Below, in pieces: positions 5,665 to 61,966 of a stretch of DNA of 64,000 bases. Within the stretch, counting starts at the first letter, position 1; each line of letters opens with the position of its first letter. The notes beneath the pieces are model-generated. The model saw nothing but the letters and a program-made list of their open reading frames with translations. It was not told the DNA's origin and searched no databases. The stretch comes from Firmicutes bacterium HGW-Firmicutes-14 (GTDB taxonomy: Bacteria; Bacillota; Thermincolia; Thermincolales; UBA2595). The stretch spans positions 1 through 64,000 of the forward strand of contig PHAB01000020.1 of NCBI GenBank assembly GCA_002840275.1, written 5' to 3'. Both the position numbers and the translations under genes were made by a program.

Positions 5665-5667
5665 AAT

Positions 5668-7215: not shown

Positions 7216-7216
7216 T

Positions 7217-7723: not shown

Positions 7724-7737
7724 AGGGAGTGAAAAAT

Positions 7738-32551: not shown

Positions 32552-33187
32552 ATGGCCGGAGAATACAATCAGGAGATACCTTTGACCAAAGCGGCAGCTA
32601 TCTTTACCGCCGCTGCGGCAGTGGTAGTAATCCTTTGTATAGCCATTGGCGAAGCATTTTTCTGGGACCGGTACGACACCATTGACCCGGTTGACAAAGA
32701 TATTGCCTATTACAGCAGAATATCAGCGGAGCAGCCGGATAATGACAATGCCCTGGTAGAGCTGGGGTGGCGTTATTACAGGAAAGGCAATTTTCAGGAA
32801 GCTGTCAAAGCCCTGGAAAAAGCCGCCGAACTAAATAGAAGCAATGTTGCGGCTCACTTTAACCTGGCCTTGAGTTACAAAGAAATGGGCCTGCTGGGTA
32901 AAGCCGAAGAGGAATTCAACCGTGTCATTACCTTAGAAGAGGACCATAAACTGGTACCTTTTTACATGGGTAAGATGTACCTTGAACAGCGCCGGTATGA
33001 TGATGCCATCAAGCATCTGCAAAGGGCCGTGCAATTGGACCCTGTATCGGCAGACGGCCATTATCTTCTGGGCAGCGCTTATGCAGCGAAAGGACACAAT
33101 GAGGAGGCTTTGGCGGCCTTCGAAAGATGCCTTCAGCTGGCGCCCGGCCATGAGGAAGCCCGGGCAGCAGCAAACGGACTTGAATAG
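32552..33187 (+). CDS. Membrane-anchored TPR-repeat protein
   Basis: This 211-residue protein has a membrane helix (AAIFTAAAAVVVILCIAIGEAFFW, about 12-38). Four TPR units follow (about 60-200): ALVELGWRYYRKGNFQEAV, AAHFNLALSYKEMGLLGKA, PFYMGKMYLEQRRYDDAI and GHYLLGSAYAAKGHNEEAL. TPRs mediate protein contacts. As the first gene before NHL and multiheme proteins it may help assemble or present them outside the membrane, which is an inference. ATG 32552 follows GGGGAT. Confidence 0.87.
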   Translation: MAGEYNQEIPLTKAAAIFTAAAAVVVILCIAIGEAFFWDRYDTIDPVDKDIAYYSRISAEQPDNDNALVELGWRYYRKGNFQEAVKALEKAAELNRSNVAAHFNLALSYKEMGLLGKAEEEFNRVITLEEDHKLVPFYMGKMYLEQRRYDDAIKHLQRAVQLDPVSADGHYLLGSAYAAKGHNEEALAAFERCLQLAPGHEEARAAANGLE

Positions 33188-33234
33188 GTCTTGTTAAGAC
33201 TTTTTGACTGAACAGCTGTGGAGGATTGTATAAA

Positions 33235-34191
33235 ATGCATAAAAAATATATGCTGAAATTCCCCGGCAGACTGGCAGTACCGGCTGTTGTGGCCGTGGCA
33301 GTGTTGGCGGCAATATTATTGTGGCCGGCAGACACGGAGAATCAGAACATTCCCGGAATGCAGGTTTTCAATGTCATATTCGGTCATGGCGGCGCTCCCC
33401 TGCAAGACCCATCGGTTGTGGCAGTGGGCCTCAAGGGAGAAGTTATTGTGGCTGATTCAGGGAGCAAACGAATTTTGGTTTTTGCTGACAACGGGGAGTA
33501 CCTTTACAGTTTTAGCGGACCCGGCTCCGGCCTGGCTGAATTGGAACAGCCCATTGCTCTGGCTGTAGGCCCGGACGGGGATATATATGTGGCTGACAGT
33601 TCCAAAGAGGCAGTAATAGTGTTCAGCAGTGCGGGTGAATACAGGTATAGGATTACAGGTCCGGAAGGGTTTATACCTTCCGGAGTGGTTGTGGCAGAAG
33701 ACGGAATTCCTATTATATTCAATGAAGCTGACCTTAAACTTTATGCTTACTCCCCGGAAACGAAGGAACTGCAGAGTGTTTTCGGGGAAACCGAAAAGAA
33801 ATCGCCATCAATGCTGCTGGGGAATATGTTCTGGGATCCCGGCAGTGAGAAAATATTCGCCATTGACAGGAAAATGAAGCAGGTGGCAGTAATAAAAAAG
33901 GGCATGGTTGTAGATTCCTGGGGCTGGGATTACCTGGATATCCCAGGCGGGATAGCCTATGACCGGTCCAATAACCTGGTTTTTGTCAGTGATACAGCCA
34001 GGTCCCGCATAGTGGTGTTCAGCTCTGACGGCAGCTATGTGGGTGAGTTTGGCTCCGGGGGAGAAGGAAAGGAAAGCTTTAATTCCCCCGGCGGGCTGGC
34101 CATGGACCAGCGAGGCAGGCTTTATGTGGCAGACAGGGGAAATGACAGGGTAGTTATTTACAGCTCAAAGGGACTCTCTGAACAACAGTAA
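33235..34191 (+). CDS. NHL-repeat beta-propeller protein, membrane-anchored
   Basis: This 318-residue protein has an N-terminal membrane helix (LAVPAVVAVAVLAAILLW). About six NHL blades follow with the repeated pattern (x)PxxVAVxxxGxIxVADSxxxRIxVF, for instance VIVADSGSKRILVF, IYVADSSKEAVIVF, VFVSDTARSRIVVF and LYVADRGNDRVVIY. The propeller should sit outside the membrane. NHL proteins recur next to multiheme cytochromes in metal-reducing bacteria, but their job there is not settled. GGAGG precedes ATG 33235. It has two relatives in this window (35470-36471 and 50138-51067). Confidence 0.9.
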   Translation: MHKKYMLKFPGRLAVPAVVAVAVLAAILLWPADTENQNIPGMQVFNVIFGHGGAPLQDPSVVAVGLKGEVIVADSGSKRILVFADNGEYLYSFSGPGSGLAELEQPIALAVGPDGDIYVADSSKEAVIVFSSAGEYRYRITGPEGFIPSGVVVAEDGIPIIFNEADLKLYAYSPETKELQSVFGETEKKSPSMLLGNMFWDPGSEKIFAIDRKMKQVAVIKKGMVVDSWGWDYLDIPGGIAYDRSNNLVFVSDTARSRIVVFSSDGSYVGEFGSGGEGKESFNSPGGLAMDQRGRLYVADRGNDRVVIYSSKGLSEQQ

Positions 34192-34233
34192 CCCGGTAGT
34201 TACAAATTAGTTACCAGTTAGAGGGGTGACAGT

Positions 34234-35451
34234 ATGGCCAAACAAAAAATAACAGTTTTGTTTACAGCTCTATTGATGTTTGCTGCCGCGTTACCCGTTT
34301 GGGCGGCTGTCACAATTGAAGGTGTTTACACGAACTATGAATCACCCTCCACCAGCAGTGCAACGGTATATTACCAGGGGACTCCCCCCTTCACCATCTA
34401 CAGCAGCCCGGACGGTCAGGACTGGGTTCTGCGGGCTTCAGGAGTTAATGTCTATTCCTATATTTATACCGGGTGTACCAACTACGTAAATTACTACTTC
34501 AAGATTCAGGATAACCTGGGCAGTACTGCTTTGGCCCTTGCTTTTCCGCCAGACAACAACCCTCACGGGTCCTTCAAGTTTAACACGAGCTATTGCGCGG
34601 CCTGCCATGTAACCCATGCGGGGTCGGGGATATACCTGATGAAGTCTCCAAATGCCGTAGCCTTGTGTACCACTTGTCATGACGGGACCCAGAGCAAATA
34701 TGATGTCATGAACGGAAAAGTTAAACTGCCGGGGGGTGACTGGGGAGAAACTTCAGGCGGGCCTTTTGGGGCTTTACGGACAGAAGCGGACCTTCCGGCG
34801 GGTGAGTCAGTTGAATCCGCCGTTTATACAGGGTACACGTCAGAAAGTACCCAGCCTGTTACCAACAGTCCCACTTCCATTCACAACCTTGGAAGGGCTT
34901 TTAACACCGCGCCCGGAGGCGTCAGTGACAAAGAGGCCGGCATGGGCTGTGAAAGCTGTCATGACCCCCACGGTAACAGCCGGAATTTCCGTAATCTGAA
35001 AAACACCATAAAGGTAACAGATACATTATCAGTTGACATCAATTTTCAGGCCTTCGCAGAGACGGACCCGGCCAAATCCAGCGGGTATGGAGAGAACGTT
35101 ACATACAATACAGGCAGTATCTATTTCTGTTCCGCCTGCCACAGTGATTATAACCAGGCTTCCGGCAGCGGAAGTACTGCGGCGACAAGTACTAATCAGC
35201 CGGGATTCCCTCTTACTGCGTCTTCCATGAATAAGTTTATACATGCGGTAAATACACCCCTTTATTTTGAAGGGGAATACCTGACTACTTCCCTGCCGGT
35301 TGAGGTTGGGACCGGAATTAACACTGTTGTCTGCCTTTCCTGCCACCATTCCCACGGTACCGCCAGGACAGGTGCCAGTCAGCTGACCGGTTCAACGGCC
35401 CTTATAAGGATAGATGATCAGGGTGTCTGCCAGGAGTGTCACAAAAAATAA
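34234..35451 (+). CDS. Secreted 6-heme c-type cytochrome
   Basis: This 405-residue protein has a signal peptide (ITVLFTALLMFAAALPVWA), then an N-terminal beta domain of ~85 residues and six CXXCH heme sites: CAACH, CTTCH, CESCH, CSACH, CLSCH, CQECH. Several sit in the doubled-CXXCH pattern (CxxCHxxH; CxxCHDPHG). A CHDGTQSKYDV motif is shared with the other two FN3/heme proteins of the cluster. It is exported unfolded through Sec and matured by the ResB/CcsA system encoded downstream. It may be a short-range electron carrier in the wall zone. GAGGGG precedes ATG. Confidence 0.93.
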   Translation: MAKQKITVLFTALLMFAAALPVWAAVTIEGVYTNYESPSTSSATVYYQGTPPFTIYSSPDGQDWVLRASGVNVYSYIYTGCTNYVNYYFKIQDNLGSTALALAFPPDNNPHGSFKFNTSYCAACHVTHAGSGIYLMKSPNAVALCTTCHDGTQSKYDVMNGKVKLPGGDWGETSGGPFGALRTEADLPAGESVESAVYTGYTSESTQPVTNSPTSIHNLGRAFNTAPGGVSDKEAGMGCESCHDPHGNSRNFRNLKNTIKVTDTLSVDINFQAFAETDPAKSSGYGENVTYNTGSIYFCSACHSDYNQASGSGSTAATSTNQPGFPLTASSMNKFIHAVNTPLYFEGEYLTTSLPVEVGTGINTVVCLSCHHSHGTARTGASQLTGSTALIRIDDQGVCQECHKK

Positions 35452-35469
35452 AATCTGCGGGGGATAGAA

Positions 35470-36471
35470 ATGCAGGCCGGTACAGTGATAGAAAAAATCA
35501 GAAACAAAAAAGTAAATAAGAAAGACCTGGTCATAGTTATACTGTTATTTATAATCGCCGCCCTTATTTTCTTCGGCTGGAACTATTTTCGCACTAAACA
35601 GAATCCCATCAGCATAGACATTGCCCCGTCAGCCAAAGCGCATAAATACCTGTTCAGCATATATGAACCCGGGGTTTTAAGCAGGCCCCTGGGAGTTGCT
35701 GTCAGCCAGTGGGGTGACATAATTGTCGCCGATAGCGCTAACCATAGGATAGCAATTTTTGATGCAAACGGCAAATTTACCAAATTCATTGGTAAAATGG
35801 GCCAGGGTCCCGGAGAATTTAATTATCCAACGTCAGTAGCTGTTCACGGCGGGAAAATCTATGTGGCTGATTTTTACAACCAACGTGTACAGGCGCTTAA
35901 TTTTAACGGAGAACAATTAAGTGTGCTGCCTAATAGCAGGGATACCAGAGAAATTGGTTCCGGCATAATGCCGGTGACCCTGGCGGTTGATAAAAACGGA
36001 AAATTATATGTATCTGATGTAAGCCAGCAGAAAATTTTGATATTCGATGATAAAGGGAGATTCACCGGCTCTATTGGAAACGGAGGAAGCGGAGATGGCC
36101 AGATTTCATATGTTAACGGTATTGCCGTAAATGTTGACAGCGGAGAGGTCTGCCTTTCCAATTCCAATAATTCCAGGATTGATGTTTTTACCCTGGAAGG
36201 GAAATACATGGGACAGCGGCTTGGACCCAAACAAGTAGCCAACCCAAAGGGTATAGCTTTTGAAGAAAGTACAGGAATGCTTTATGTTGCCGATACCCTG
36301 GCCCATAGAATCCTGGTGAGCGACAGGGAAGGGAAGATCGTGGAATACATAGGCCGGAGAGGCCTGGATTCCGGGCAGTTTAATTTTCCGACAGCCGTGG
36401 CCATAGACAAAAGAGGACGGTTATATGTTGCGGACAGGGAAAACAACAGGATCCAGGTTTTTGACAGGTAA
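35470..36471 (+). CDS. NHL-repeat beta-propeller protein, membrane-anchored
   Basis: This 333-residue protein has one membrane helix (LVIVILLFIIAALIFFGW, about 20-38) and six NHL blades: IIVADSANHRIAIFD, IYVADFYNQRVQAL, LYVSDVSQQKILIFD, VCLSNSNNSRIDVF, LYVADTLAHRILV, LYVADRENNRIQVFD. The even spacing of about 48 residues fits a closed six-bladed propeller. It lies 18 bases after the 6-heme cytochrome and 25 bases before the next cytochrome, so it is clearly in the same operon. An external binding or scaffold role is inferred. Confidence 0.92.
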   Translation: MQAGTVIEKIRNKKVNKKDLVIVILLFIIAALIFFGWNYFRTKQNPISIDIAPSAKAHKYLFSIYEPGVLSRPLGVAVSQWGDIIVADSANHRIAIFDANGKFTKFIGKMGQGPGEFNYPTSVAVHGGKIYVADFYNQRVQALNFNGEQLSVLPNSRDTREIGSGIMPVTLAVDKNGKLYVSDVSQQKILIFDDKGRFTGSIGNGGSGDGQISYVNGIAVNVDSGEVCLSNSNNSRIDVFTLEGKYMGQRLGPKQVANPKGIAFEESTGMLYVADTLAHRILVSDREGKIVEYIGRRGLDSGQFNFPTAVAIDKRGRLYVADRENNRIQVFDR

Positions 36472-36496
36472 GGGATTTGCGTCAGGGGGAGAATCT

Positions 36497-38974
36497 ATGC
36501 ATATACTTTACAGGCACATGAAAAAAAAGCCGGTTCTTCTAGCTGCTGTTACAGTTATATTTGCGGCAGCCGTTTTTGCCGGTTATTTCACCTCTCCCGC
36601 CATATCCCAGCAGGGTTCCTATTTTAGCGACCAGTTTGACCTGGGGAGTTATGACTGGACAGTAGTCAGGGGGGACTGGGCGGTAATTGACGGCCGGTAT
36701 ACGGAGAGGACTAAACCTGATACCGATATCACCTGGTCCGCGGCAGGTTCTTCCAGTTGGGTGGATTATTCTGTGGAAGCCAAGGTTTATTCTGATGATG
36801 CTTCAGTGGGAAAGATTTACCTGGCAGGCCGCTGGGTGGATGAGAATAACCATTACGGCCTGGAATACAGTGATAACGGATCTGGCGCTGCAGGCGCCGG
36901 TACGGCCTCGTTGATTTTATATAAAAAAAAGAACGGAGTCCGTACCAACCTTCTGACAATGCCGCGGTCCAATGATACAAAAGTGCCTTACATAGGGGAA
37001 GGGGCTTCGGCTGTAGCGGACAATCCTTATCCTGCCGTGTTAAAGCTGAAATTTGACGGGTCCAATATAACGGTATACTGTAACAGCCAGCAAATAGGTT
37101 TTAGTGCCGATACTTCTCTGTACTATGGACAGATTGCTTTGGGGGAATATAACAGGAACGTCTATTTTGATGATGTCTGCGTCTGGGATGTAACCCCGCC
37201 TAAACTTTATCCCCCTTCTGTTACGGAAGTAACGGGCACAGCGGCTTCCATCAGTTTCAGCACTGATGAGCTTACTTCTTATACAGTGGAATATGGGACT
37301 ACTGATTCATACGGTTCAAGTGTTACCCAGACGACCCGGGGAACGACCCATTCTGTGGACCTGACAGGTTTAAGCCTCAATACCGCCTACCACTACAGGG
37401 TCACTGTGACAGATGCCGCCGGTAACCAGACTGTCAGCACCGACCAGACATTTTCTACCTTAAGCGAGTTAGATACAGTAGCTCCAACTGTATATGATAT
37501 ATCTGCCGGTGATATTACAGCAACGACTGCAACCGTCAGCTGGAAGTCCGATGAACCGGCTAATTCCCTGGTCGAATGGGGTACCCAACCGGGAGTATAC
37601 AGGTGGTCCCTTTCATATGATTCCAGGACCGTTGATCATGCCGTTTTCTTAAAAGGGTTAGACGGACTGACCACTTACTACTATCGTGTCAAATCCAGGG
37701 ACTTGAGCGGCAACATAGGTTTGTCAGGAGAGTATTCCTTTACCACCCTTAAGGACTTACGGCCCAAGGTAACTGCCATAAAGACAGGCACAGACCCGGA
37801 ACCTGCCACGACTGTCAATTTTTCTGTTTACTGGCAGGATGTTCCTACGGCTGTCAGCTATAAAGTATATGTGTCTGCATCCAATGCCTGGGGTATACCG
37901 GTTAATGTGGCCGATACAGCGGGTAAGGAAGAGTATGTTTATACCAAAGATTCTTTAACACCATATACAAACTATTTTGTGCGTATTTATTCCGAAGATG
38001 CCGGGGGTGAGACAGGTTATTCAACAGTACGTGTTTTCCCGCCCAGCTTAAACCCCCACGGCAACCCCCACGGTTTTTATAATAAAAATGCCATTTTATG
38101 CGGGGATTGTCACTATACCCACTCAGCTTTAGGCCCGCGTCTTATTTCTGAAGTAAATGCCGATAGGATGTGTGTGACGTGCCACGACGGGACCCAGAGC
38201 AAGTACGATGTCCTGCGGGGTAAGGTTTTAGGGCCGACTTCCAGTACAACAAAAGACGAGAACGGGGTCTGGACGGATGTGTACCGGGCCACCTGGTATG
38301 AATCTATAGCGGGACCTTATGGGACCGTCGAAGGTTTTACAGTAAAGCAGAGTGCATATGTTCCCACATCCAGGCATGACCTTAATATTTACAACTATGC
38401 GGCCCCCGGTAACAATATTGAAAATGTGGAGACCTCTGATACACGTTTGTCCTGTGCTTCCTGCCACGACCCCCACGGTTCCGATAACTACCGGAACCTG
38501 CGTCCAAACATGAAGGTATGGAATGATGCAAATCCACCGTTAATTATTATGGAGGCCTATGCGGTAACAGACTCGGCCAACAAGAAGGAAGAGACTATTT
38601 ACGTCAGTGGGGCGGTAGAATTCTGCGGAGCCTGCCACAGTGATTTTAACCAGGGGGCCGGGGCCAGCCGGAATGCAATCAGTACTACGGCGCAGCCGGG
38701 GCTGACCCTGTCCAAGTCTTCAACACACATGTATATGCACCCCGTAAATGTTACCGCACAATATGTCACCAAGACAGCTTATGCTGTCCCAACCCCGGAT
38801 TATTTGCCTTATGAGAATGGAAAAATTATCTGCCAGACCTGCCATTTTACCCATGGTACAACTAACACCGGCACTCATGTCCGGAGAGACGGGTTTAACT
38901 CAACGTGCCTGAAGCGATTTGATAAAACCACCGGCTGTGAAGACTGTCATGATAAGACCAACCACCCGGACTAA
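36497..38974 (+). CDS. Jelly-roll/FN3/6-heme c-type cytochrome
   Basis: This 825-residue protein has a signal/anchor (VLLAAVTVIFAAAVFAGYF). A concanavalin-like jelly-roll of about 190 residues follows (YFSDQFDLGSYDWTVVRGDW...IALGEYNRNVYFDDVCVWDV; partial motif), then three FN3 domains (about 235-325, 330-420, 425-520). Six heme sites end the protein: CGDCH, CVTCH, CASCH, CGACH, CQTCH, CEDCH. The jelly-roll resembles the LamG/DUF1080 class that binds glycans or other surfaces, so this may tether hemes to the wall or a solid. The heme part is a close parallel to that of the 405-residue protein. AGGGGGAG precedes ATG 36497. Confidence 0.92.
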   Translation: MHILYRHMKKKPVLLAAVTVIFAAAVFAGYFTSPAISQQGSYFSDQFDLGSYDWTVVRGDWAVIDGRYTERTKPDTDITWSAAGSSSWVDYSVEAKVYSDDASVGKIYLAGRWVDENNHYGLEYSDNGSGAAGAGTASLILYKKKNGVRTNLLTMPRSNDTKVPYIGEGASAVADNPYPAVLKLKFDGSNITVYCNSQQIGFSADTSLYYGQIALGEYNRNVYFDDVCVWDVTPPKLYPPSVTEVTGTAASISFSTDELTSYTVEYGTTDSYGSSVTQTTRGTTHSVDLTGLSLNTAYHYRVTVTDAAGNQTVSTDQTFSTLSELDTVAPTVYDISAGDITATTATVSWKSDEPANSLVEWGTQPGVYRWSLSYDSRTVDHAVFLKGLDGLTTYYYRVKSRDLSGNIGLSGEYSFTTLKDLRPKVTAIKTGTDPEPATTVNFSVYWQDVPTAVSYKVYVSASNAWGIPVNVADTAGKEEYVYTKDSLTPYTNYFVRIYSEDAGGETGYSTVRVFPPSLNPHGNPHGFYNKNAILCGDCHYTHSALGPRLISEVNADRMCVTCHDGTQSKYDVLRGKVLGPTSSTTKDENGVWTDVYRATWYESIAGPYGTVEGFTVKQSAYVPTSRHDLNIYNYAAPGNNIENVETSDTRLSCASCHDPHGSDNYRNLRPNMKVWNDANPPLIIMEAYAVTDSANKKEETIYVSGAVEFCGACHSDFNQGAGASRNAISTTAQPGLTLSKSSTHMYMHPVNVTAQYVTKTAYAVPTPDYLPYENGKIICQTCHFTHGTTNTGTHVRRDGFNSTCLKRFDKTTGCEDCHDKTNHPD

Positions 38975-38986
38975 AAGGTGAGGACC

Positions 38987-41900: not shown

Positions 41901-44900
41901 GGCACTGCCATGGGGCCGGACCTGACAACAGGACTATATTAAGTGACCAGTACACCAAGTTTATCAACAAACCCCACTCTTTACTGGAGAGGGATGGTTC
42001 CAAGAATCCTTACGGACCCGGCATTGATAACCCGTGTATGAAATGTCATGAACACCATTCATCAACTAATGTCAGGTTGATAAGGACGGTCCTGGACGGT
42101 GTCGCTATTGACGCTGCCAGCGATACGGGAAAAATTAATGCCTGCATGGCCTGCCATGACGGCTCGCCGGGAGATGTGGACATCTCTGCCAAGTACAACG
42201 CTGCCAGCCATGGAGGACACTATATAAAGAGCGATCCGACCAAGAAATTGCTGTGTACCGAGTGTCATGACCCCCATGGTTCTGTTAACGTTTCCTATTT
42301 GCTGGATACCAGCAACAAGTATAATACGGGGATTACTTTCCCCACTGATATCCTGGTCAAAGGGCAGTCCCGGGACTTTTGCCTGGCCTGTCATCCCACA
42401 TCAGAGGAACCGGAGAGGGTATATAATACTGTTTATACCATCAAGGTCAATGAATCCGTCAACTATAAAGTATATATTCAGCCCCTGCCTTATCCTGACA
42501 GGATAGCCGACCATAAGTCAGCGGGCGCCCGGGAGTGTGTTGTCTGTCATGATGCCCACAAGCCCTGGCCGCCCACGGGCGGGGAGGACAGGTGTTATGA
42601 CTGCCACAGTTCGGACGGAGAAGCATATGACATCAGAGCACTGGCCGGCCTGGATTCTGAAACGGAGGGGTACTATCCCGGCCTGAATTCCCACCACAGG
42701 ATAACTGATGCCAGCACAACAAGCAACACCTGTGTTGAACGGTGTCACACCCCGCACCCCCACAGTCCCCGGGCAGACTTGATTAAGACAGATCATCTGA
42801 TAGGGGACGAAAAATCAATGTGCCTGAAATGCCATTCCACAGTGGCCGAAGAAACGTACAAGTCACCCTACACCATAGATGCAGCCCAATATGCCCTGGG
42901 GCCCCATGATTATGTGATACCTATCAGGATATTCTCTGACAATAGTACTTTCAAGGGTAACTGTGACAAGTGCCATGTACCTCATGGTTCTACCTTTGCA
43001 CCCTTGCTGAAACTGCGGAAGGACGAGCTTTGCGTTGACTGCCATAACGGTGTGACCAGAGACGGGTCCGGAAACATTATCAGGGACATCAAGACCCAGT
43101 ATGAGGCCCAGGGGCACAAATACACCGAATACCCCACTGCCAAGATGTATTGTGACGAATGTCATGTGCCTCACGGTTCCACCAATGACAACTACCTGCG
43201 GGATGCAGACACATATGCGCCTACCCAGACCGTTACTCTGGTTTCCGACGGGGTATACCAGCAGCAGCAGTTCCCGGAGGGAATTTCGGGTGTTGATTAC
43301 AGTCCCCGTAAATTCTGCATTGTATGTCATATAGAATACCGGGAGGGAGTAACTTCATACGTTTACTATTCCAGTGAGACATCTCCCGGGTCCTATGTTG
43401 CCATTCCCGGTATCCGCAAGGTGCTGGACCACGTGACAATTAATGAACACGTATATGGTGACACAACTGAGTGTACGATATGTCACAATGCCCATGACCC
43501 GGAACCTGTGGGCAGTGATTATGACTGCTTCAACTGCCATGGAAAAGACGGTTACGCCACCAGGATAGAACCCCTGACCGGCTACGGCGGTTATGGTGGG
43601 GGATATGAGTGGCCGACGGTGGCCAAAGCGACATATCACCCGATCTATGATGCCAACAGCAAAGGCACTAATGACTGTATGGTTATGTGCCACAAGCCCC
43701 ATATGCATGACCCGCGGGCCAACATGCTTCTTGACAAGCGGGCAACGGCGGGTGATACAACCGCTCCGGCAGCGCCTGCAAGCCTGGATGTAAATGCCTC
43801 CAGCGCTGTCCAGGCCGACCTGTCATGGCCGGCATCAGAATCACCGGATGTTTTTGGCTATTTTGTATACCGCAAGATTGGCGCCGCCGGGACCTGGCAA
43901 AAATACGGTGCAGTGAACAATACGGTCTATAATGATGAAGGACAGACATCGGTTACCGTCTGGTTCTATGACGGGGGTCTGAAACCGGGTACAACCTATT
44001 ATTACAAAGTGTCAGCCAAGGACCGGAATGAGAATGAATCGGGACAAACAGCTGAAGTGAGTGTGACACCTTCCCTGGCTTCTGATTCGACATCACCCGC
44101 CACACCGGCTAACCTGAAAGCCACGGTGCCGACCACAGCTGGCAGTACCCGGCTTTCCCTGAGCTGGAGCGCGGCCACTGATAACTACAGGGTTGTTCAA
44201 TACTATGTCTACAGGGGCGATGCGGAAGATTTTATCCCGTCAGCAAGCAACCTGGTTGCCAAGACTGGTCTGACCAGTGTCACCGATTCCGGGTTAACCC
44301 CGGAGACGGGGTACTACTACAGGGTTTCGGCTGTTGACGAAAACGGAAATGTCTCATCTGCGGCCGCGCCTGTTTATGCAAAGACCGATTCCGCCGATAA
44401 GTATGCTGCCAGGGGGCTTTATTCCGAAGACGGTGATATCCTTGAAATCAGGGATATAGATGGCAATTACACCACAGATTTTGCCCTGGGCTCAAATATA
44501 ATCGTGAAAGTCAAGAGTGACGATGGGTTAGACAATGCTCAGACTAAGAGAATATACTTTAAAGATCACCTGAATAACATAATTGCCACCTATGAAACTG
44601 CTATGTACTCTACAGACGGCATTTATGAAGTTTTCACCTTTAATATCCAGCTGCCCACCCAAACCGCTGACGGAATGTCGTTGTACAGCGGCGCCTATAT
44701 GCTGCAGGCGGATGTTTATACAAAAACAGCAGTACATCTTACCCCATACCAGGTTATCAGGTACGGAGCGACTGCCAAAGGTTTCCGCTTTTACAAGGAT
44801 TCGGCCAGGACCCAGGAGGCCTTTTCATTCCCCCCAAATACTACTGTCTATGCCAAAGTGTTCACTGATTATCCCGGTGGTACAACTTATGTTTCCCCAT

Positions 44901-47900
44901 CCCTGACCACGTGGAAGTTTAACGGTTCCCAGCTGAGTTATACTAACAACCTAACCTGGGAGAGCCCGGCCTATGAATACGGTTTCGCCAGGTTCAGGTT
45001 TACGACCCCCAGCATTGCCAGTGGAGCCCAGGAGGGCTGGTGGTACATGTTCCGGCTGTACGCCGAGAGCAGTGCCAAGCGGAACCCTACAGTTGCCGAC
45101 TATGGGGCCATGTTGATGGTCAAGTCCAATGACACCACACCCCCCGAAGCCCCCTCTTCAGGTCCTGCCCTGACACCGGGCAAAACTGATATGAAACTGG
45201 CCTGGGGTGCTTCGGCCAACAGCGCCGGGGATTTAGGAGCTTATAGTATTTATCGTTCCGAAGACGGGACCAATTATCACCTGATAGGTTCTACCGCTTC
45301 CACCGGGTTTATGGATTACGGACTCAAGCCGGGAATAACCTATTATTACAGGGTCGCTTCTGTGGACCTGCATGGAAACATTTCCGCACCGGTTTCCGCC
45401 AGTGCGGCGACCCAGGCTTACAGTATCCTCAGTGATACTGTACCGCCCAACCGGCCGGAAAAACTGACTCTTGGCACCCCCGAACGTTCCCAGGTATTGC
45501 TGACCTGGACCCACGGCTCGGCTGAAACTGACGGGGTGGTCGGATATGCCGTGTACCGCAGCAGAAATAATGTAGAATACCTCCGGGTAGGAAACAGCTT
45601 CGACCTGTCCCTGACGGATATGGGCCTGCGCGGAAATACCCTTTATTATTACAAGGTCGGAGCCTATGACCAGACAGGCAATTTATCTGACCTGACCGCA
45701 CCGGTTTCCACAATTACCGGCAGGACCGGTGACGATTCAGTGGAAGGAACACTCTGCCTGTCATGCCACGAAGAAGGACGGACGCCCCCGGACGGTTATA
45801 CCGTGGACCACAGGATATCTTCGGCTTACCGGAAGAGCAAACACAACGTGGATTTCCCTGTATACACCATGAAGGACGGAAGCCAGTTTGAAAGCAACTG
45901 TACCAAGTGTCACGTGCCCCACGGCTCAGATTATCCGTATTTACTCAGGGCTCCTGACAACAATGAACTGTGTGCCATCTGCCATACTGACCCGTCAGGG
46001 GGTGGAAGGTATTCCGGTATTACCGAATTCAACAAGACCGCCCACGGCCAGCCGGCCACCGGGTTCAGTTACGAGTTCCAGTCTGACACACCCCGGTACT
46101 GGGTCAGTGAGAGGGTTTATGCCGACGCGGGCAGGTGCTATAACTGTCACGACCCCCATGGCAGGTTTGTGCCGGGGACAGAGAATACTACCCAGGAATA
46201 CATTAAGAGCTCCGCGGTGGCCGGGACCGGTGACAACCTGAACGAACTCTGTTACGGCTGCCACGGGGACAGCTATACCTATAATGAATACGGTGGTGAG
46301 ACTGTTTATAAGGAGACTTATCACGGCAAGACAGATACTAATCCTGAGACAGGGCTGCCCTATAATGACAAGATGTGGCTGAGTGACTACGGAAACGGGG
46401 AGTGCATAAACTGCCACGAACCCCACAAGGACGCCGAAGGGGCCATGCTTCGCTACCCGGTTAACGTGACTGATGCTGATAAAAACAAGCTGTGCCTTAC
46501 CTGTCATGATCGGGAAGATATTCTTGTTGACACCGGTTTGTTCGATGGCTCAGGAGTCTATAACAATTCCAAGCACGCCCTTAATGCCCAGTGGCTGGAG
46601 GACTTTAATACCGTCGGCGGCCAGGTCTATAACAAGACCACGTGGAATAAGGGAGTCTGCCTTGTATGCCATAACTCCCACGGCCGCACAACAGACGGCA
46701 GTACCAGCGCAGATAAAGTAATACCAAAGATGCTGGTAGTCAATGACGGCCCCAACAGCGAAATCTGCAATAAGTGCCACGAATATCCGTCTATCGCCGA
46801 CATAACTGTGGGTTACCCGGGTTTCTCCACCTTCAGCCAGGGTGTCCATAAAAGCAAGGCCCAGTGGCCCGGGGGCAGGTATTATCCGGAACCTGCTTCA
46901 GCCGAAGTCAAAGGGAAATGCATCAACTGCCATGACCCCCATGGGACAGCCGTGATAGATGCCTGGGGCAATGTCACAAACATTGTGGGCAACGTCTTTG
47001 ACTGGGAAGAAAAGGTCTGCTATGAATGTCATGACGGGATAACGGCCGCCAGCAACCTGAAATTCTGGGAAGAACAGGGTATCGGCCACCTGCCGGGGGC
47101 CTCTTACCTGGTGCATTCCTTTGATGAAGACATTAAAACCGCGGAACGGCACGTGGAGTGCCTGGATTGCCACAATGTCCACGCTGTTCAGGATTTTGAC
47201 GCCACAGAAGACCTGACCACCAGGTTGTCCAAGGCCTTTAAAGGAGTCAGCGGTGTTAAGGTAACAGGTTCGCCTTCGGTTAATACGCCGGATCCCACCA
47301 GCCAGACATGGAAGGATAATCCTTACGCCGTAAGCGGATACAGTTACCTGTTTCTTGAAAATGTAGATACAGAGCCTGCAGAATTGAGAGAATACATGGT
47401 CTGCTTTAAATGCCATTCCAGTTATTCAGGAGCGACAACGGGTGGAAAGCGGATAATTGCTTATTTGAATCCGAATAATGTTTCAACTCACGGCTTCAGT
47501 TTTACTGAAAAGACATCTTTCATTAACACTAAAATCAATTCGATTCCTGATAAGCTGTTTCCCAATGATACGTCTAAACCGGGTTATGCCTTCCATCCCA
47601 GTAACCCTAATCAGCGTTTTAACCTGACATGCTCTGATTGTCACGGAAATCCGGATACCACCGGCGGCAAACCAAGGGGGCCTCATGGTTCGAACTGGGA
47701 GTACATATTGAAGGGTAATCCCCGAAGTTCCAGCTTCTGCAATGAGTGCCATCCGGCAACACAATATGGAAGTGATTCTGCAGCTGCAACATTGTCTGAC
47801 AGTGACCCGGGAGGCGCATATCACCGGAAGTCAAACCATTATGGTGATTTGCAGAGCAAGATCGATACAAATGCCGCTGAAGCATTTATGTCCACCTTCG

Positions 47901-48151
47901 GCACAAATGTCTGTCGCTACTGCCACTTTGCCGGCTATATGCAGAACAGCACCAAATATGTCTCTGTCCATGGCGAAAATGCGGCGTTTTCCACTGCATC
48001 AAACGGCAGTTACAGGGCCGAAAAGGGACTCAACGGTTACTTCATCAAGACGGTTGACGTGGTAGGCGGACAAGGGCAAAGGTCGTGTGATACAATGGCT
48101 GTAACGGGAATATCATCTTATTCCTGCAGCCACGGATCTAAATCATATTAA
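38987..48151 (+). CDS. Giant FN3/multiheme c-type cytochrome (3054 residues, ~45 heme sites)
   Basis: It has a signal peptide (residues ~18-38) and a first heme site at Cys53 (CTSCH). A beta domain runs to ~225, then FN3 domains at ~229-330 and ~335-454. Heme block A (474-1569) holds 25 CXXCH and three CX3CH sites (Cys856, Cys1249, Cys1564). FN3 domains at ~1590-1805, a non-heme beta region (~1805-2045) and two more FN3 (~2048-2247) follow. Heme block B (2257-2980) holds 16 CXXCH. Total: 42 CXXCH plus 3 CX3CH. Many sites have the CHxPHG doubled-CXXCH form. AGGTGAGG is spaced for ATG 38987. Large secreted multiheme proteins of this type serve long-range extracellular electron transfer; that role here is inferred. 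The frame is intact over 9.2 kb. Confidence 0.95.
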   Translation: MKIINMGKSYKKRLRRWLPAIMAIAACLIIPAVAFGWPSNHVDSSATGDLPYCTSCHTYEAGYLTIESINGKAPRSNSVTITQTGTFDMTFRTVGLGYGRFTVAGSIQVPDTSKWALSQTGGGDTPWFIAQQSTIYGAPAESPYMWSTAFPAVDNPNSQKGVTIDDGSSSGAYIDRNLTAHDEQFTVHVDVYDQLPLGTYTLKIWGVGTSSAGKLSYNEQILSVNVTNDTTKPDTPTGLSASPASASSIGLSWNASSDPEPNSTGIDGYEVYRAPDESGSPGAYEYVGYTSSASYTDDELKSGTKYHYIITAVDNAGNISDYSAPASATTGTGAREDGAPSAPTGVKAFMVDQENGSNKVVRIQWNNNTEGDIVGYKVYRATELAGSYALITQSLVTTMTAVEINASPRVVVNSVYYVDTVFKYGTTYYYKVVAVDVDGKASVMSSYTAITPAVDQGAVNPHGGYDDPANAGLCGNCHSTHSARGSELIYYSSITDSCYTCHDGSQSKYNTKAAFDPVSNPSHHKVPEGRYSCDVCHNPHYSSPITIKVDGDTVNETVYRLLSAVSKEDGLIKRRGNEFCWACHGVNSDLPNPFGQDHKTAFINSKHNTVAPTSEETQIICLNCHAPHGSKDYPLIITANSANFCITCHQDNGFTETKLYDDSDTFTGLYLDNLSNKYLGTIHEQNFYGRNTCTMCHEPHGHITNRYMLRDPYNDHYNNSGNGNNVNGYPYGPVDWSADWNTESKTICFRCHDSQYYVGINGAGSSTVGSNFGNGNGKNYHDHSTKLKVSCRACHDPHSGQSRFQNSSPGWQLDNAHYINFDWAYRTGIAAESVYENTLAFIPAYGVNLEETGYSCAVTCHNLDHHISGGTFKSYIRTGNSPALKCAACHDFDTFDRNSRHPVLENGDESNVMVTCEQCHIEDHTKHDESNPYGLRATLTSNWAYTPDSTTLGTVIDPDTGEEVPAYGEFCWHCHGAGPDNRTILSDQYTKFINKPHSLLERDGSKNPYGPGIDNPCMKCHEHHSSTNVRLIRTVLDGVAIDAASDTGKINACMACHDGSPGDVDISAKYNAASHGGHYIKSDPTKKLLCTECHDPHGSVNVSYLLDTSNKYNTGITFPTDILVKGQSRDFCLACHPTSEEPERVYNTVYTIKVNESVNYKVYIQPLPYPDRIADHKSAGARECVVCHDAHKPWPPTGGEDRCYDCHSSDGEAYDIRALAGLDSETEGYYPGLNSHHRITDASTTSNTCVERCHTPHPHSPRADLIKTDHLIGDEKSMCLKCHSTVAEETYKSPYTIDAAQYALGPHDYVIPIRIFSDNSTFKGNCDKCHVPHGSTFAPLLKLRKDELCVDCHNGVTRDGSGNIIRDIKTQYEAQGHKYTEYPTAKMYCDECHVPHGSTNDNYLRDADTYAPTQTVTLVSDGVYQQQQFPEGISGVDYSPRKFCIVCHIEYREGVTSYVYYSSETSPGSYVAIPGIRKVLDHVTINEHVYGDTTECTICHNAHDPEPVGSDYDCFNCHGKDGYATRIEPLTGYGGYGGGYEWPTVAKATYHPIYDANSKGTNDCMVMCHKPHMHDPRANMLLDKRATAGDTTAPAAPASLDVNASSAVQADLSWPASESPDVFGYFVYRKIGAAGTWQKYGAVNNTVYNDEGQTSVTVWFYDGGLKPGTTYYYKVSAKDRNENESGQTAEVSVTPSLASDSTSPATPANLKATVPTTAGSTRLSLSWSAATDNYRVVQYYVYRGDAEDFIPSASNLVAKTGLTSVTDSGLTPETGYYYRVSAVDENGNVSSAAAPVYAKTDSADKYAARGLYSEDGDILEIRDIDGNYTTDFALGSNIIVKVKSDDGLDNAQTKRIYFKDHLNNIIATYETAMYSTDGIYEVFTFNIQLPTQTADGMSLYSGAYMLQADVYTKTAVHLTPYQVIRYGATAKGFRFYKDSARTQEAFSFPPNTTVYAKVFTDYPGGTTYVSPSLTTWKFNGSQLSYTNNLTWESPAYEYGFARFRFTTPSIASGAQEGWWYMFRLYAESSAKRNPTVADYGAMLMVKSNDTTPPEAPSSGPALTPGKTDMKLAWGASANSAGDLGAYSIYRSEDGTNYHLIGSTASTGFMDYGLKPGITYYYRVASVDLHGNISAPVSASAATQAYSILSDTVPPNRPEKLTLGTPERSQVLLTWTHGSAETDGVVGYAVYRSRNNVEYLRVGNSFDLSLTDMGLRGNTLYYYKVGAYDQTGNLSDLTAPVSTITGRTGDDSVEGTLCLSCHEEGRTPPDGYTVDHRISSAYRKSKHNVDFPVYTMKDGSQFESNCTKCHVPHGSDYPYLLRAPDNNELCAICHTDPSGGGRYSGITEFNKTAHGQPATGFSYEFQSDTPRYWVSERVYADAGRCYNCHDPHGRFVPGTENTTQEYIKSSAVAGTGDNLNELCYGCHGDSYTYNEYGGETVYKETYHGKTDTNPETGLPYNDKMWLSDYGNGECINCHEPHKDAEGAMLRYPVNVTDADKNKLCLTCHDREDILVDTGLFDGSGVYNNSKHALNAQWLEDFNTVGGQVYNKTTWNKGVCLVCHNSHGRTTDGSTSADKVIPKMLVVNDGPNSEICNKCHEYPSIADITVGYPGFSTFSQGVHKSKAQWPGGRYYPEPASAEVKGKCINCHDPHGTAVIDAWGNVTNIVGNVFDWEEKVCYECHDGITAASNLKFWEEQGIGHLPGASYLVHSFDEDIKTAERHVECLDCHNVHAVQDFDATEDLTTRLSKAFKGVSGVKVTGSPSVNTPDPTSQTWKDNPYAVSGYSYLFLENVDTEPAELREYMVCFKCHSSYSGATTGGKRIIAYLNPNNVSTHGFSFTEKTSFINTKINSIPDKLFPNDTSKPGYAFHPSNPNQRFNLTCSDCHGNPDTTGGKPRGPHGSNWEYILKGNPRSSSFCNECHPATQYGSDSAAATLSDSDPGGAYHRKSNHYGDLQSKIDTNAAEAFMSTFGTNVCRYCHFAGYMQNSTKYVSVHGENAAFSTASNGSYRAEKGLNGYFIKTVDVVGGQGQRSCDTMAVTGISSYSCSHGSKSY

Positions 48152-48159
48152 AGCCCGGT

Positions 48160-48184
48160 GACAGGTGGTACCAAGCCACCTGTC
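48160..48184 (+). terminator. Hairpin after the giant cytochrome gene, possible partial terminator
   Basis: GACAGGTGG (48160-48168) pairs perfectly with CCACCTGTC (48176-48184) across a 7-base loop. Only a weak T tract (CTGTTATTG) follows. It may lower, rather than stop, transcription into resB/ccsA or protect the upstream mRNA. Confidence 0.55.
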
Positions 48185-48224
48185 CTGTTATTGCAAATAA
48201 TTTCTTTGTATAAAGGAGTTTAAC

Positions 48225-49217
48225 ATGAAAACCGGCAACCTTGCCAAATTGGCCCTGGGATTGATGCTGGCCCTGCTTTTCGGTATATTGACTGATTTCT
48301 ATATTTTCCCCGGAAAAAATCAGGCCAGGTTGTTTTTCCGCTCAGGTCTGATGGTGGCGCTGTTGTTTGGCCTGGCGGCGAGTCTGCTTGCCTGTAACCT
48401 GACCAGGGTTTCAGTAATGTCCAGGCAGGCCAAAATTACCGGTTCAAACACCGCCAAACGGGGTTCAGTCATTTTTCACCTGGGGCTTGTACTGATTCTT
48501 TTTGGCTTTGGCATTTCCGCCCTCTTTGGCATGAAGGGACGGGTGATGATCCCGGAGGGGGTTGCGGTCAGGTTCCCTTCCGAAATAAGCAGTGTGGAAA
48601 CAGGAAAATTGCATAGTTTTGAGGAATACACCGTGGGTTTAAATGAAATGGAACTGGTCAGGGAAGGTGAAAACATCGGACAGGTGCGAAGCCATGTGGA
48701 TTTTATAACCAATGGCCAATCCGGCCGTCGTGTTATTGAGATTAACCGCCCGGCAAAGTTCAGGGGTTATTACTGGCGCTCAATGAACTGGGGATATTCC
48801 GTTCATTTAATAATAAAAAGCGAAGATATGACAGTATTAGACAATTTCTTAAATATTGCCACCCACAGGGACGGGTTATATTACGACAGGTACTCTGTTC
48901 CTGACCTGGGTGAATTCCAGGTGCGTTTTTACGCCAATATGCCGGTTCAGGGCAAGCCGGCGGAAAAAGCCGTTTTCCCTGACAGGCCCGCAGTGGAAAT
49001 AAAGTTATTAAGTTCCGATACCTCCGGTGCGGAACCCGGGGGCCCAATAATACCTCTGGGTCAGACAGGGAAACTGGGCAATTACACGGTTTCATTTTCG
49101 GAGCACCGGTTTTGGGAAGAATTTGATGTTTCCAGTGACCCCGGTGAATCCTTTATCTTCCTGGGGAGTATTCTGGCAGTTGCGGGGTTGTTTTTGAGGG
49201 TTGTTTTTAGGGGTTGA
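48225..49217 (+). CDS. resB: ResB/Ccs1-like cytochrome c biogenesis protein
   Basis: This 330-residue protein has membrane helices at ~8-30, ~38-60 and ~82-105, a large external beta domain, and the family end DVSSDPGESFIFLGSILAVAGLFLRVVF. ResB with CcsA/ResC forms the System II heme lyase that attaches heme to CXXCH outside the membrane. It is placed directly after the giant cytochrome and before ccsA. Family members are often longer, and the helices are fewer than in fused forms. AAAGGAG precedes ATG. Confidence 0.9.
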   Translation: MKTGNLAKLALGLMLALLFGILTDFYIFPGKNQARLFFRSGLMVALLFGLAASLLACNLTRVSVMSRQAKITGSNTAKRGSVIFHLGLVLILFGFGISALFGMKGRVMIPEGVAVRFPSEISSVETGKLHSFEEYTVGLNEMELVREGENIGQVRSHVDFITNGQSGRRVIEINRPAKFRGYYWRSMNWGYSVHLIIKSEDMTVLDNFLNIATHRDGLYYDRYSVPDLGEFQVRFYANMPVQGKPAEKAVFPDRPAVEIKLLSSDTSGAEPGGPIIPLGQTGKLGNYTVSFSEHRFWEEFDVSSDPGESFIFLGSILAVAGLFLRVVFRG

Positions 49218-49260
49218 TTGCGAGGTTGATTTCAGGGGCAGGTAAGGAGGCAGCGGGTTT

Positions 49261-50106
49261 ATGTCTGAACCGGAAATGCTCTTTTTTTGGATTACTGTTA
49301 CCAGCTATGTCCTGGTGACCCTGCTGTATATTAACTGGATTACGGGAAGCAGGATATCTGCTGCAAAGGCTGAAAGAGCGCTGATCTGGAGTGGTTTCCT
49401 GGCCAATACTGCAGTGGTTGTAACCCGGACCGTCACTTCAGGGCACCTGCCTGTCAGGACGTTATATGAATTGAATGTTACTGTCGCCTGGCTTATAGTA
49501 GGGGTATACCTGACAGCCCGGAGGGTTTACAGCAATACATCACTGGTCGGATTAATTTCCGTTCCTTTTGCTTTCCTGGTAATGGGCTGGGGTTATGCCG
49601 AGAATCCCGCCATTGAACCCCTGACCGCCGCATACAAAAGCAGCTGGCTGGCAGTTCACGTGCTTTTTGCCCTGCTTTCCACGGCATGTTATGTTTTTGC
49701 CACCGGGACAAGCATCATGTATTTGCTGAGGAACCGGTTCACCGGGGCAGCCGGGGTAAAATACAGGTTACTGCCGGATCCGGCTGATTTGGACCGAATT
49801 TCGGTCAGGCTGGTCATGTTCGGTTTTCTGTCAGGCACCATAATGCTGCTAAGCGGTTCCATATGGGCGAAACTGCTGTGGGGCAGTTACTGGAGCTGGG
49901 ATCCGGTGGAAACATGGTCTCTGATCAGCTGGTTGGTATACGGTATTTATCTTCACCTGTATTCTACTTTTGGCTGGAGGGGAAATAAACTGGCCTGGCT
50001 GTGCCTGGGATGCCTGGCGACCAATATCATCAGTTTCTGGGCTGTAGGTATCGTCACACCCGATACCTATCATAACCTGGAACTTATTACCCGCCCTGTT
50101 GACTAA
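49261..50106 (+). CDS. ccsA: CcsA/ResC-like cytochrome c heme lyase subunit
   Basis: This 281-residue protein has eight predicted helices and the tryptophan-rich heme-binding motif WGSYWSWDPVETWSLISWLVYGIYLHLY (positions about 202-230). Flanking His residues (VHVLFALLS; LHLYSTF) are placed for heme ligation. It transports or presents heme for ligation in System II, partnered by ResB. TAAGGAGG precedes ATG. It overlaps a possible earlier start of the next NHL-type protein. A dedicated pair beside ~60 heme sites fits a high maturation demand. Confidence 0.93.
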   Translation: MSEPEMLFFWITVTSYVLVTLLYINWITGSRISAAKAERALIWSGFLANTAVVVTRTVTSGHLPVRTLYELNVTVAWLIVGVYLTARRVYSNTSLVGLISVPFAFLVMGWGYAENPAIEPLTAAYKSSWLAVHVLFALLSTACYVFATGTSIMYLLRNRFTGAAGVKYRLLPDPADLDRISVRLVMFGFLSGTIMLLSGSIWAKLLWGSYWSWDPVETWSLISWLVYGIYLHLYSTFGWRGNKLAWLCLGCLATNIISFWAVGIVTPDTYHNLELITRPVD

Positions 50107-50137
50107 AGACCGCTGGCAACGAATAGAGGGGAATCTT

Positions 50138-51067
50138 ATGGCCGCAAAAAACATGCCAAAATATACATATGGATTTTTGGTGATAGCTGCACTGGCTTTG
50201 ACGGCTGCTGTGGCCTGGATGATTTTCGGCCGGTCCGGACCGGCTGTAAAATTAAAACACAATACATTGAACGAAAAAGACCCGCCTGTTTACCTGGGTG
50301 AAATTAAAGTTCCTGATAATAAGAAACCTATTTGGGTTTATGTTTATGAAGAGAATCTTTTTGTCAGTTATACAGAAGAAGAAAACATAGATATCTTTTC
50401 TTTAACCGGTGAGAAGTTAAGAGAATTAAGGGCCAAGATTACAAAAAGCGAAGGGGCTCCCCAGGGGATGCTGAAAACCTCCAGGGGCATGCTGGTAGCT
50501 GACTATCAAAACGGGGGAATCGGGTTTTTTGCAGATAATGGCCGGTTGCTGGATGCTTATTATGTGACTGCTGACAACAGGCCGATAAAACCGGTCAGTG
50601 CCGCTGTTTACAATGACGTGCTGTATATTACCGATGTAAATATTAACGGTTGGCTGGCTGTTTTGCAGGATGGAGAAATGATCATGGAAATTAAGGGCGA
50701 TGACGAAAAAAAGAGAATGGAATTTCCCTACGGTATTGCTGTAACCGGTGATGGCCGGGTCATAGTCACCGACCCGGCGGGAGGACGGGTTAAGGTTTTT
50801 AACTGTGCCGGGTGGTATGCCTTTGATTTACCCGCTTCCGAGTTAGGCATGAAGAACCCCCAGGGTGTTATCATAGACGGCCTGGGCCGGATACACTTAG
50901 TCGATAACGGCTCCGGGTATGTATTTGTGTTTGATAATTCCGGCAATTACCTGTTTAAGTACGGAGAGGGGTTAAAAAACCCCTCAAATATAGCTGCCGA
51001 CCGGGAGAACAGGGTTATTTACATAGCCAATACAGAGGATGAGAGTATTTCAATCTGGGGGTACTGA
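50138..51067 (+). CDS. NHL-like beta-propeller protein, membrane-anchored
   Basis: This 309-residue protein has an N-terminal membrane helix (YGFLVIAALALTAAVAWMIF). A divergent propeller follows with blades such as VFVSYTEEENIDIFSLTG-like, MLVADYQNGGIGFF, LYITDVNINGWLAVL, VIVTDPAGGRVKVF, IHLVDNGSGYVFVFD and IYIANTEDESISIW. It is related to the two NHL proteins upstream but less regular. GAGGGGAATCTT is placed for ATG 50138 rather than TTG 50099. It is the last gene of the cytochrome cluster on this strand before an unrelated radical SAM gene. Confidence 0.88.
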   Translation: MAAKNMPKYTYGFLVIAALALTAAVAWMIFGRSGPAVKLKHNTLNEKDPPVYLGEIKVPDNKKPIWVYVYEENLFVSYTEEENIDIFSLTGEKLRELRAKITKSEGAPQGMLKTSRGMLVADYQNGGIGFFADNGRLLDAYYVTADNRPIKPVSAAVYNDVLYITDVNINGWLAVLQDGEMIMEIKGDDEKKRMEFPYGIAVTGDGRVIVTDPAGGRVKVFNCAGWYAFDLPASELGMKNPQGVIIDGLGRIHLVDNGSGYVFVFDNSGNYLFKYGEGLKNPSNIAADRENRVIYIANTEDESISIWGY

Positions 51068-60638: not shown

Positions 60639-60841
60639 AAACCTTGCATATAACGGGCATCCGGAAATTATGAGAATTTATTTACGAATCAAAAAATTCC
60701 AAACAAAAAAAGGGATTTACTCATTGGACGTAGAATAGAATGTCAGAATAAAGAAGAAATTTTATTATTTTCTTTTTATTTTTTAACCAAATGTGATTTG
60801 TGGCGCAAGAAAATATACGGTTGAGGAGGCTTAAATGGAAG

Positions 60842-61912: not shown

Positions 61913-61966
61913 TATATCCGGTTAAATGATTCTGTACCAACTGTGCCTGGGGAGGAGCATCGAAAC

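Follow-up and report, generated by a model that had tools for sequence, protein, structure and literature searches.

A repeated TPR-NHL-hexaheme cassette with OmcS-homologous cytochromes in a predicted extracellular electron transfer locus of Firmicutes bacterium HGW-Firmicutes-14

The subject of this analysis is a group of cytochrome, propeller and heme attachment genes at positions 32552-51067 of a 64,000-nucleotide stretch of the Firmicutes bacterium HGW-Firmicutes-14 genome (contig PHAB01000020.1, positions 1 to 64,000; this whole stretch is called the window, and its numbering is used unless another locus is named). The genome comprises 3.65 Mb in 67 contigs. Our comparisons support the assignment of this group to the extracellular electron transfer (EET) loci of the Thermincola ImdcA-CwcA type. 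The explanation that we consider best as a whole, with a probability of roughly 0.55, is a locus of this type in which cytochromes with the fold of OmcS, the nanowire subunit of Geobacter, form wires, and in which NHL propeller and TPR proteins assemble or anchor these wires at the membrane. The evidence consists of gene content, gene order, co-conservation, homology to OmcS and predicted membrane anchors. A first-pass annotation of the same DNA had described nine genes running in one direction and had taken them for a Gram-positive EET locus. All nine are present on the + strand in the order it gave (TPR, NHL, six-heme, NHL, jelly-roll/FN3/six-heme, giant cytochrome, ResB, CcsA, NHL), and the proposed function agrees with the homology of the six-heme genes to OmcS and with a sister cassette that has the layout of the Thermincola ImdcA-CwcA locus. 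That annotation was accurate and understated the case, as the cassette recurs in the genome and across Bacillota and Chloroflexota.

OmcS homology of the six-heme cytochromes

Profile and motif comparison shows homology between the six-heme proteins and OmcS. With eight source-genome members as the profile, OmcS came out best among all PDB chains (E 3.2e-13). The OmcS sequence, which was verified against the PDB entry, scored 78.8 bits against a 43-member profile in a single collinear domain that takes in all six hemes, compared with at most 31.9 bits for 500 OmcS shuffles in which the CXXCH motifs were preserved. Profiles built from subsets of the family retained the signal, weakly so for Chloroflexota. 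The six CXXCH motifs are collinear with those of OmcS, and each of the 12 heme cysteines has its counterpart there. Histidines that are invariant or nearly so number exactly twelve in the family, and eleven of them align exactly with OmcS His13, 16, 51, 110, 144, 147, 243, 257, 332, 335 and 404; the twelfth, in an N-terminal HG, falls close to OmcS His2 in a different alignment column. The position equivalent to OmcS His16, which we take to be the inter-subunit ligand, is conserved at 98%. OmcS itself has 12 axial histidines, one of them supplied to heme 5 by the neighbouring subunit (PMC6584659).

A structural model of the first six-heme protein, P0003, gave the same answer. The AlphaFold2 model was made from 45 sequences with no template and reached a pLDDT of 76.6 and a pTM of 0.76. 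Its top PDB match in VIA-align was OmcS (Z 13.0, rmsd 3.4, 228 residues, model residues 86-380 on OmcS 1-406), with about 27% identity over the structural alignment. The next rows were FN3 and other domains that matched P0003 residues 1-82, and Foldseek put FN3 domains first, owing to this N-terminal domain. The AlphaFold2 training data predate the 2019 OmcS structure, so the OmcS-like model should not be a memorised one. As modelled, then, P0003 has the OmcS fold. P0003 and P0005 are predicted to be members of the CwcA family, an equation based on locus layout and not on the sequence of Tfer_0075. The six-heme gene of L031/L114 (L numbers denote the loci and genomes compared) falls in the same family.

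The cassette, its partner proteins and competing explanations

NHL and paired-CXXCH genes co-occur throughout the source genome. Units of the type TPR-NHL-multiheme are found on contigs 36 (two), 27, 54, 37, 6 and 2, partial copies lie on contig 59 and at the end of contig 27, and ahead of several cassettes lie genes for ten- or twelve-heme cytochromes that have a membrane segment at the N-terminus. A second cassette starts in the last 3.2 kb of the window, at whose end a 17-heme gene begins; it continues beyond the window (L001, 2800-16327) with TPR, NHL, six-heme and 14-heme genes and a 40-heme gene truncated at the end of the contig. Its order, 10h-12h-17h-TPR-NHL-6h (numbers of hemes), is the layout of the Thermincola ImdcA-CwcA locus.

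A scan of a genome collection that was queried with the six-heme protein alignment alone returned 27 loci from Thermincola, Desulfosporosinus, other Bacillota, Neobacillus, Bacillus, Paenibacillus and Chloroflexota. The six-heme family is present in 27 of 398 phylum genomes, in 21 genera and mostly in several copies each. Co-conservation of NHL and cytochrome genes, on which the first-pass annotation had made its proposal depend, is what we found in these scan loci taken together with the source-genome loci. An NHL gene lies directly upstream on the same strand of 36 of 48 six-heme genes, the figure for other genes being 11 of 453 (P about 1e-34 in a Fisher test, a value that overstates independence because the genomes are related), and chance clustering was rejected on these order statistics. 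TPR precedes NHL in 31 of the 36 pairs, and a multiheme gene directly follows the NHL gene in 44 of 46 cases. Distance matrices over 33 cassettes were correlated at 0.89 for TPR and NHL, 0.76 for NHL and the six-heme protein and 0.79 for TPR and the six-heme protein, which suggests that paralogous cassettes keep their own partners together. In L017 and L031 whole TPR-NHL-six-heme triplets are tandemly repeated.

Neobacillus and Bacillus carry clusters of 10-heme, 12-heme, TPR, NHL and hexaheme genes (L037, L038, L040, L041) and Paenibacillus has a TPR-NHL-hexaheme unit (L027); these clusters suggest EET in Bacillales. The Chloroflexota loci L030, L033, L034 and L039 have TPR (and NHL where it was called), tandem six- or seven-heme family members and then a seven-heme protein of about 1250-1670 residues. 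With Desulfosporosinus, Neobacillus, Bacillus, Paenibacillus and Chloroflexota among its carriers, the TPR-NHL-hexaheme unit widens the range of OmcS-fold cytochromes to organisms that are seldom considered in this connection.

The partner proteins appear to belong to the membrane. An N-terminal membrane segment is predicted in 48 of 49 NHL proteins and in all 36 TPR proteins, and a lipobox was found in one of the 49 NHL proteins only. P0002 and P0004 score clearly above the NHL (PF01436) cut-off and P0009 weakly so. No invariant histidine or cysteine was found in the NHL or TPR families, whose conserved residues are those expected of the repeats. An enzymatic role for NHL was rejected for this reason; the lack of catalytic-looking invariant residues makes an enzyme unlikely and a binding role likely. 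Because of the membrane anchors, the TPR-NHL pair in each cassette and the co-duplication, we favor a membrane-side assembly or anchoring platform over caps placed along a filament, and we infer that NHL and TPR form a platform dedicated to taking up the cytochrome, holding it or setting it in place.

The mechanism that we propose, including polymerisation, electron direction, topology and the assembly or anchoring role, would run as follows. ResB and CcsA would attach the hemes. An NHL propeller encoded immediately before each six-heme cytochrome would be dedicated to it, and every cassette would supply a TPR protein; propeller and TPR protein would be anchored in the membrane and face outward. 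These two would receive the new cytochrome once its hemes are attached, prevent premature polymerisation and seat the base of the wire beside the ten- and twelve-heme cytochromes, which would oxidise quinol. P0003 and P0005 would probably make up a heme wire, by polymerising or stacking, that leads through the wall or past it, the lectin-like domain of P0005 could tether this protein to the wall or to exopolysaccharide, and the 45-site giant cytochrome would probably provide a further long-range path. The pairing of each six-heme protein with membrane-anchored helpers of its own, in several copies, suggests that the cell has machinery dedicated to making electron wires that cross a thick wall or extend past it. 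How electrons pass a Gram-positive wall and how cytochromes become wires are general questions, and the compact, repeatedly duplicated unit of TPR, NHL and OmcS-fold hexaheme genes offers a defined set of candidate assembly genes with which to address them.

Other roles can be given to the same genes. The first-pass annotation had suggested that the propellers scaffold or cap the cytochromes outside the cell, binding along them or at their tip. Its observation of NHL and cytochrome genes side by side stands, as a multiheme gene directly follows nearly every NHL gene, and propellers often act as binding surfaces and here lack catalytic-looking invariant residues. The proposed location fares less well: proteins with N-terminal membrane segments should stay at the cell membrane unless they are cleaved, the constant TPR partner is left unexplained, and both fit a membrane-side partner better, so that we regard the scaffold or cap as improbable. 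A role restricted to cytochrome c maturation, in which NHL and TPR would deliver apocytochrome to ResB-CcsA in the manner of the NrfG/CcmI-type TPR proteins and take no part in wire assembly, draws on the presence of ResB-CcsA in many of the same loci and on a TPR score of 41.5 bits against PF23914, the CcmH/CycH TPR domain (cut-off 42). Generic TPR models score higher than PF23914, which makes this match unspecific, and TPR-NHL pairs go with the six-heme gene, also at L009, L010, L021, L037 and L040, where the stretch read has no ResB-CcsA; maturation as the sole role seems unlikely to us. It is barely credible that NHL and TPR merely travel along, as neutral passengers, with a large cytochrome region that is often duplicated. 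The family is indeed dispersed and frequently duplicated, but the gene order is fixed across Bacillota and Chloroflexota at low sequence identity, the genes are duplicated again in tandem as a triplet, and the gene-order statistics and paired distances had already made this unlikely.

The cytochromes could also be secreted monomeric electron carriers whose OmcS fold reflects shared ancestry without polymerisation. OmcS is the only G. sulfurreducens hexaheme known to form wires (PMC12977616), which favors this view, whereas the family retains all distal-histidine positions, including the His16 equivalent, and CwcA could not be kept soluble on expression (PMC7911101); we consider monomeric carriers a doubtful alternative. 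Several points nevertheless weigh against wires assembled by NHL and TPR. The OmcS paralogues of Geobacter are not known to form wires, and homology is no proof of a wire (PMC12977616); according to one report an OmcS-deficient strain reduced Fe(III) oxide as well as the comparison strain (PMC11077965). P0003 alone as query gives no PDB match, so the OmcS link needs a profile, and a profile of Chloroflexota members only is weak on OmcS (20.2 bits, with shuffles reaching 11.0 at most). Gene linkage by itself would account for some of the correlation between distances, six-heme genes without adjoining NHL or TPR occur (e.g. L029, L032), and the third NHL gene, P0009, adjoins no cytochrome gene.

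Gene content of the locus and the linked BchE-like gene

The coordinates of the locus and of the start of the second cassette are given in Table 1. Domains were called with the curated cut-offs of Pfam (20 for NHL), and NCBIfam was used too; the locus proteins match NHL, TPR, fn3, Paired_CXXCH_1, ResB and Cytochrom_C_asm. P0003 and P0005 have six CXXCH motifs each.

Table 1. Features of the electron transfer locus and of the second cassette (window coordinates)
Feature	Position	Strand	Description	Support or remark
P0001	32552..33187	+	TPR protein, predicted N-terminal transmembrane anchor; first gene of the cassette	Orthologues in L112, L113, L115 at 46-66% identity
P0002	33235..34191	+	NHL propeller, predicted N-terminal transmembrane anchor; partner of the first six-heme cytochrome	NHL 91.6 bits
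P0003	34234..35451	+	Predicted secreted six-heme cytochrome; N-terminal FN3-like domain and OmcS-fold hexaheme domain	Motifs, profile, model
P0004	35470..36471	+	Second NHL propeller, predicted membrane-anchored; upstream of the second six-heme cytochrome	NHL 146.1 bits
P0005	36497..38974	+	Six-heme cytochrome of the P0003 family, fused to CBM66/lectin-like jelly-roll and fn3-type domains	Jelly-roll modelled with low confidence
P0006	38987..48151	+	Giant cytochrome, 3057 aa as listed, 42 CXXCH and 3 CX3CH; fn3 domains separate the heme blocks	
P0007	48225..49217	+	ResB-type cytochrome c synthesis protein	PF05140 70.6 bits, cut-off 24.6
P0008	49261..50106	+	CcsA-type heme handling protein	PF01578 123.7 bits
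P0009	50138..51067	+	Third NHL-type protein, predicted membrane-anchored	NHL 27.6 bits (weak); no cytochrome gene after it
P0010	51163..52605	+	BchE-like B12-binding radical SAM protein	Recurs downstream of ResB-CcsA in related loci
Ten-heme gene	60800..61912	+	Membrane cytochrome (ImdcA-like), opens the second cassette	
Twelve-heme gene	61943..63178	+	Membrane cytochrome, second cassette	

Intergenic gaps are mostly 3-95 bp across the locus, and a weak terminator-like stem at 48160-48184 separates the giant cytochrome gene from ResB. The suggestion of the first-pass annotation that there are one or two operons fits the short gaps and the single weak stem. A plasmid search gave no match. The jelly-roll of P0005 was modelled with a pLDDT of 52, and its likeness to CBM66 is best taken as a hint at the fold, with no claim of sugar binding. 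ResB and CcsA domains are both present, which predicts System II cytochrome c synthase activity; P0008 scores 172.7 bits against TIGR03144, slightly below the cut-off of 187.6, and has a tryptophan-rich stretch, WGSYWSWDPVE. An NHL gene after ResB-CcsA was also found in L024, L025, L100, L102 and L105. Elsewhere in the window, genes at 4567-9523 resemble a [NiFe] hydrogenase operon (Tat-type small subunit, large subunit and maturation protease, from N-terminal sequences only).

The entire window locus is syntenic in three related genomes (L112, L113 and L115), where the 42 CXXCH and 3 CX3CH motifs of the giant cytochrome are exactly kept at 53-70% protein identity, so that the motif count is not due to chance. 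Expansion of the giant in the source genome only was rejected, since L112 and L113 carry the full 42+3; the shorter look of the giant in L015 and L016 came from truncated stretches. Very large multiheme genes followed by ResB, CcsA and a BchE-like gene were also seen in L103, L108 (65 CXXCH) and L092 (58 CXXCH).

The P0010 gene belongs to the conserved locus and lies directly beyond the nine genes described. P0010 scores 440 bits against the BchE model TIGR02026, under the cut-off of 481, and 175 bits against the next curated family; on these scores it is a member of a group related to BchE and not BchE itself. A search for this family over 398 genomes, made independently of the cytochromes, found a band of 360-460 bits in 21 genomes, apart from BchE matches near 800 bits in the same phylum. 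The gene is present in 15 of the 27 six-heme carriers as against 6 of the 371 other genomes, and CcsA lies within three upstream genes of 23 of the 30 BchE-like genes viewed in context. Such genes recur downstream of ResB-CcsA in multiheme loci, among them the window locus, contig 58 of the source genome (L087) and L080-L111. Some copies carry, as a fusion, a LuxE-like acyl-protein synthetase domain whose C-terminal repeats contain Cys and His (AHGAPCSTVADGM; L024, L028). The linkage points to an unrecognised step near heme attachment. It is conceivable, as a long shot, that the enzyme tailors heme, for example at a propionate side chain, before or after attachment, which would give wires with a modified heme c; the carboxylate-activating LuxE-like domain would fit such side-chain chemistry. 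We know of no such modified heme c, and a literature search on the pairing of a BchE-like gene with ResB-CcsA found nothing.

Comparison with described systems

BchE, the Mg-protoporphyrin IX monomethyl ester cyclase, is by far the closest curated family to P0010 and shares the B12-binding radical SAM architecture; P0010 differs from it in the linkage to ResB-CcsA and multiheme genes and in its score below the BchE cut-off.

OmcS of Geobacter sulfurreducens shares with the window proteins the fold, the six hemes and the 12-histidine pattern. The window proteins differ in the added FN3 domain, in having NHL and not YVTN propellers and in the Gram-positive envelope without an outer membrane. Genes for repeat proteins are found near omcS as well. 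Counted in locus tags, KN400_2445/GSU3586, which encodes a YVTN beta-propeller, precedes omcS by four, and the TPR gene GSU2508 comes five behind it (PMC3495685). GSU3586 drops together with omcS in a regulator mutant (PMC10599522), and an eight-gene block near omcS has been linked to OmcS maturation and secretion (PMC12977616). GSU2505, beside omcS, is listed as hypothetical and not as an NHL gene. OscD, a beta-propeller protein of the OmcS maturation and secretion machinery, reportedly affects the morphology of OmcS filaments in Geobacter (Shen et al. 2025), a point in favor of the scaffold or cap reading; the likeness of the NHL and TPR proteins to the Osc proteins is one of analogy.

The first-pass annotation did not count this exact assembly among those it knew, which went too far, as NHL- and TPR-repeat genes in multiheme clusters have been described in Dethiobacter alkaliphilus (PMC10376724) and an OmcS-like hexaheme in Thermincola (PMC7911101). 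As far as the main text of the D. alkaliphilus report goes, the assembly of multiprotein complexes was suggested and the clusters containing NHL and TPR genes encode most of the cytochromes that rise in strain AHT1 under ferrihydrite or thiosulfate respiration; that text mentions neither OmcS nor nanowires nor hexahemes and describes no fixed cassette (PMC10376724).

The nearest relative is the Thermincola locus. CwcA, a hexaheme of T. ferriacetica, was modelled on OmcS at 18% identity and proposed to stack as subunits through the wall, and the ten-heme membrane cytochrome ImdcA is encoded five locus tags upstream of it (TherJR_1117 to 1122, Tfer_0070 to 0075); NHL is unmentioned in that paper (PMC7911101). 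L114, from a genome deposited as T. ferriacetica, has the six genes in the order 10h-12h-17h-TPR-NHL-6h. Because L114 and the second cassette of the source genome share this order, TPR and NHL genes probably lie between ImdcA and CwcA in the canonical Thermincola locus. The OmcS-homologous six-heme cytochrome is common to Thermincola and the window, and the second cassette has the same order. The window locus differs in that it is without ten- or twelve-heme genes of its own, has a pair of six-heme genes, of which one is extended by lectin-like and fn3 parts, and adds the 45-site giant, ResB-CcsA and the BchE-like gene. Thermincola CwcA, the nearest described protein, had already been proposed as an OmcS-like wire through the wall. 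The present analysis adds the multi-copy cassette with its dedicated TPR and NHL partners, the spread of this cassette among taxa and the linkage of a BchE-like B12 radical SAM gene.

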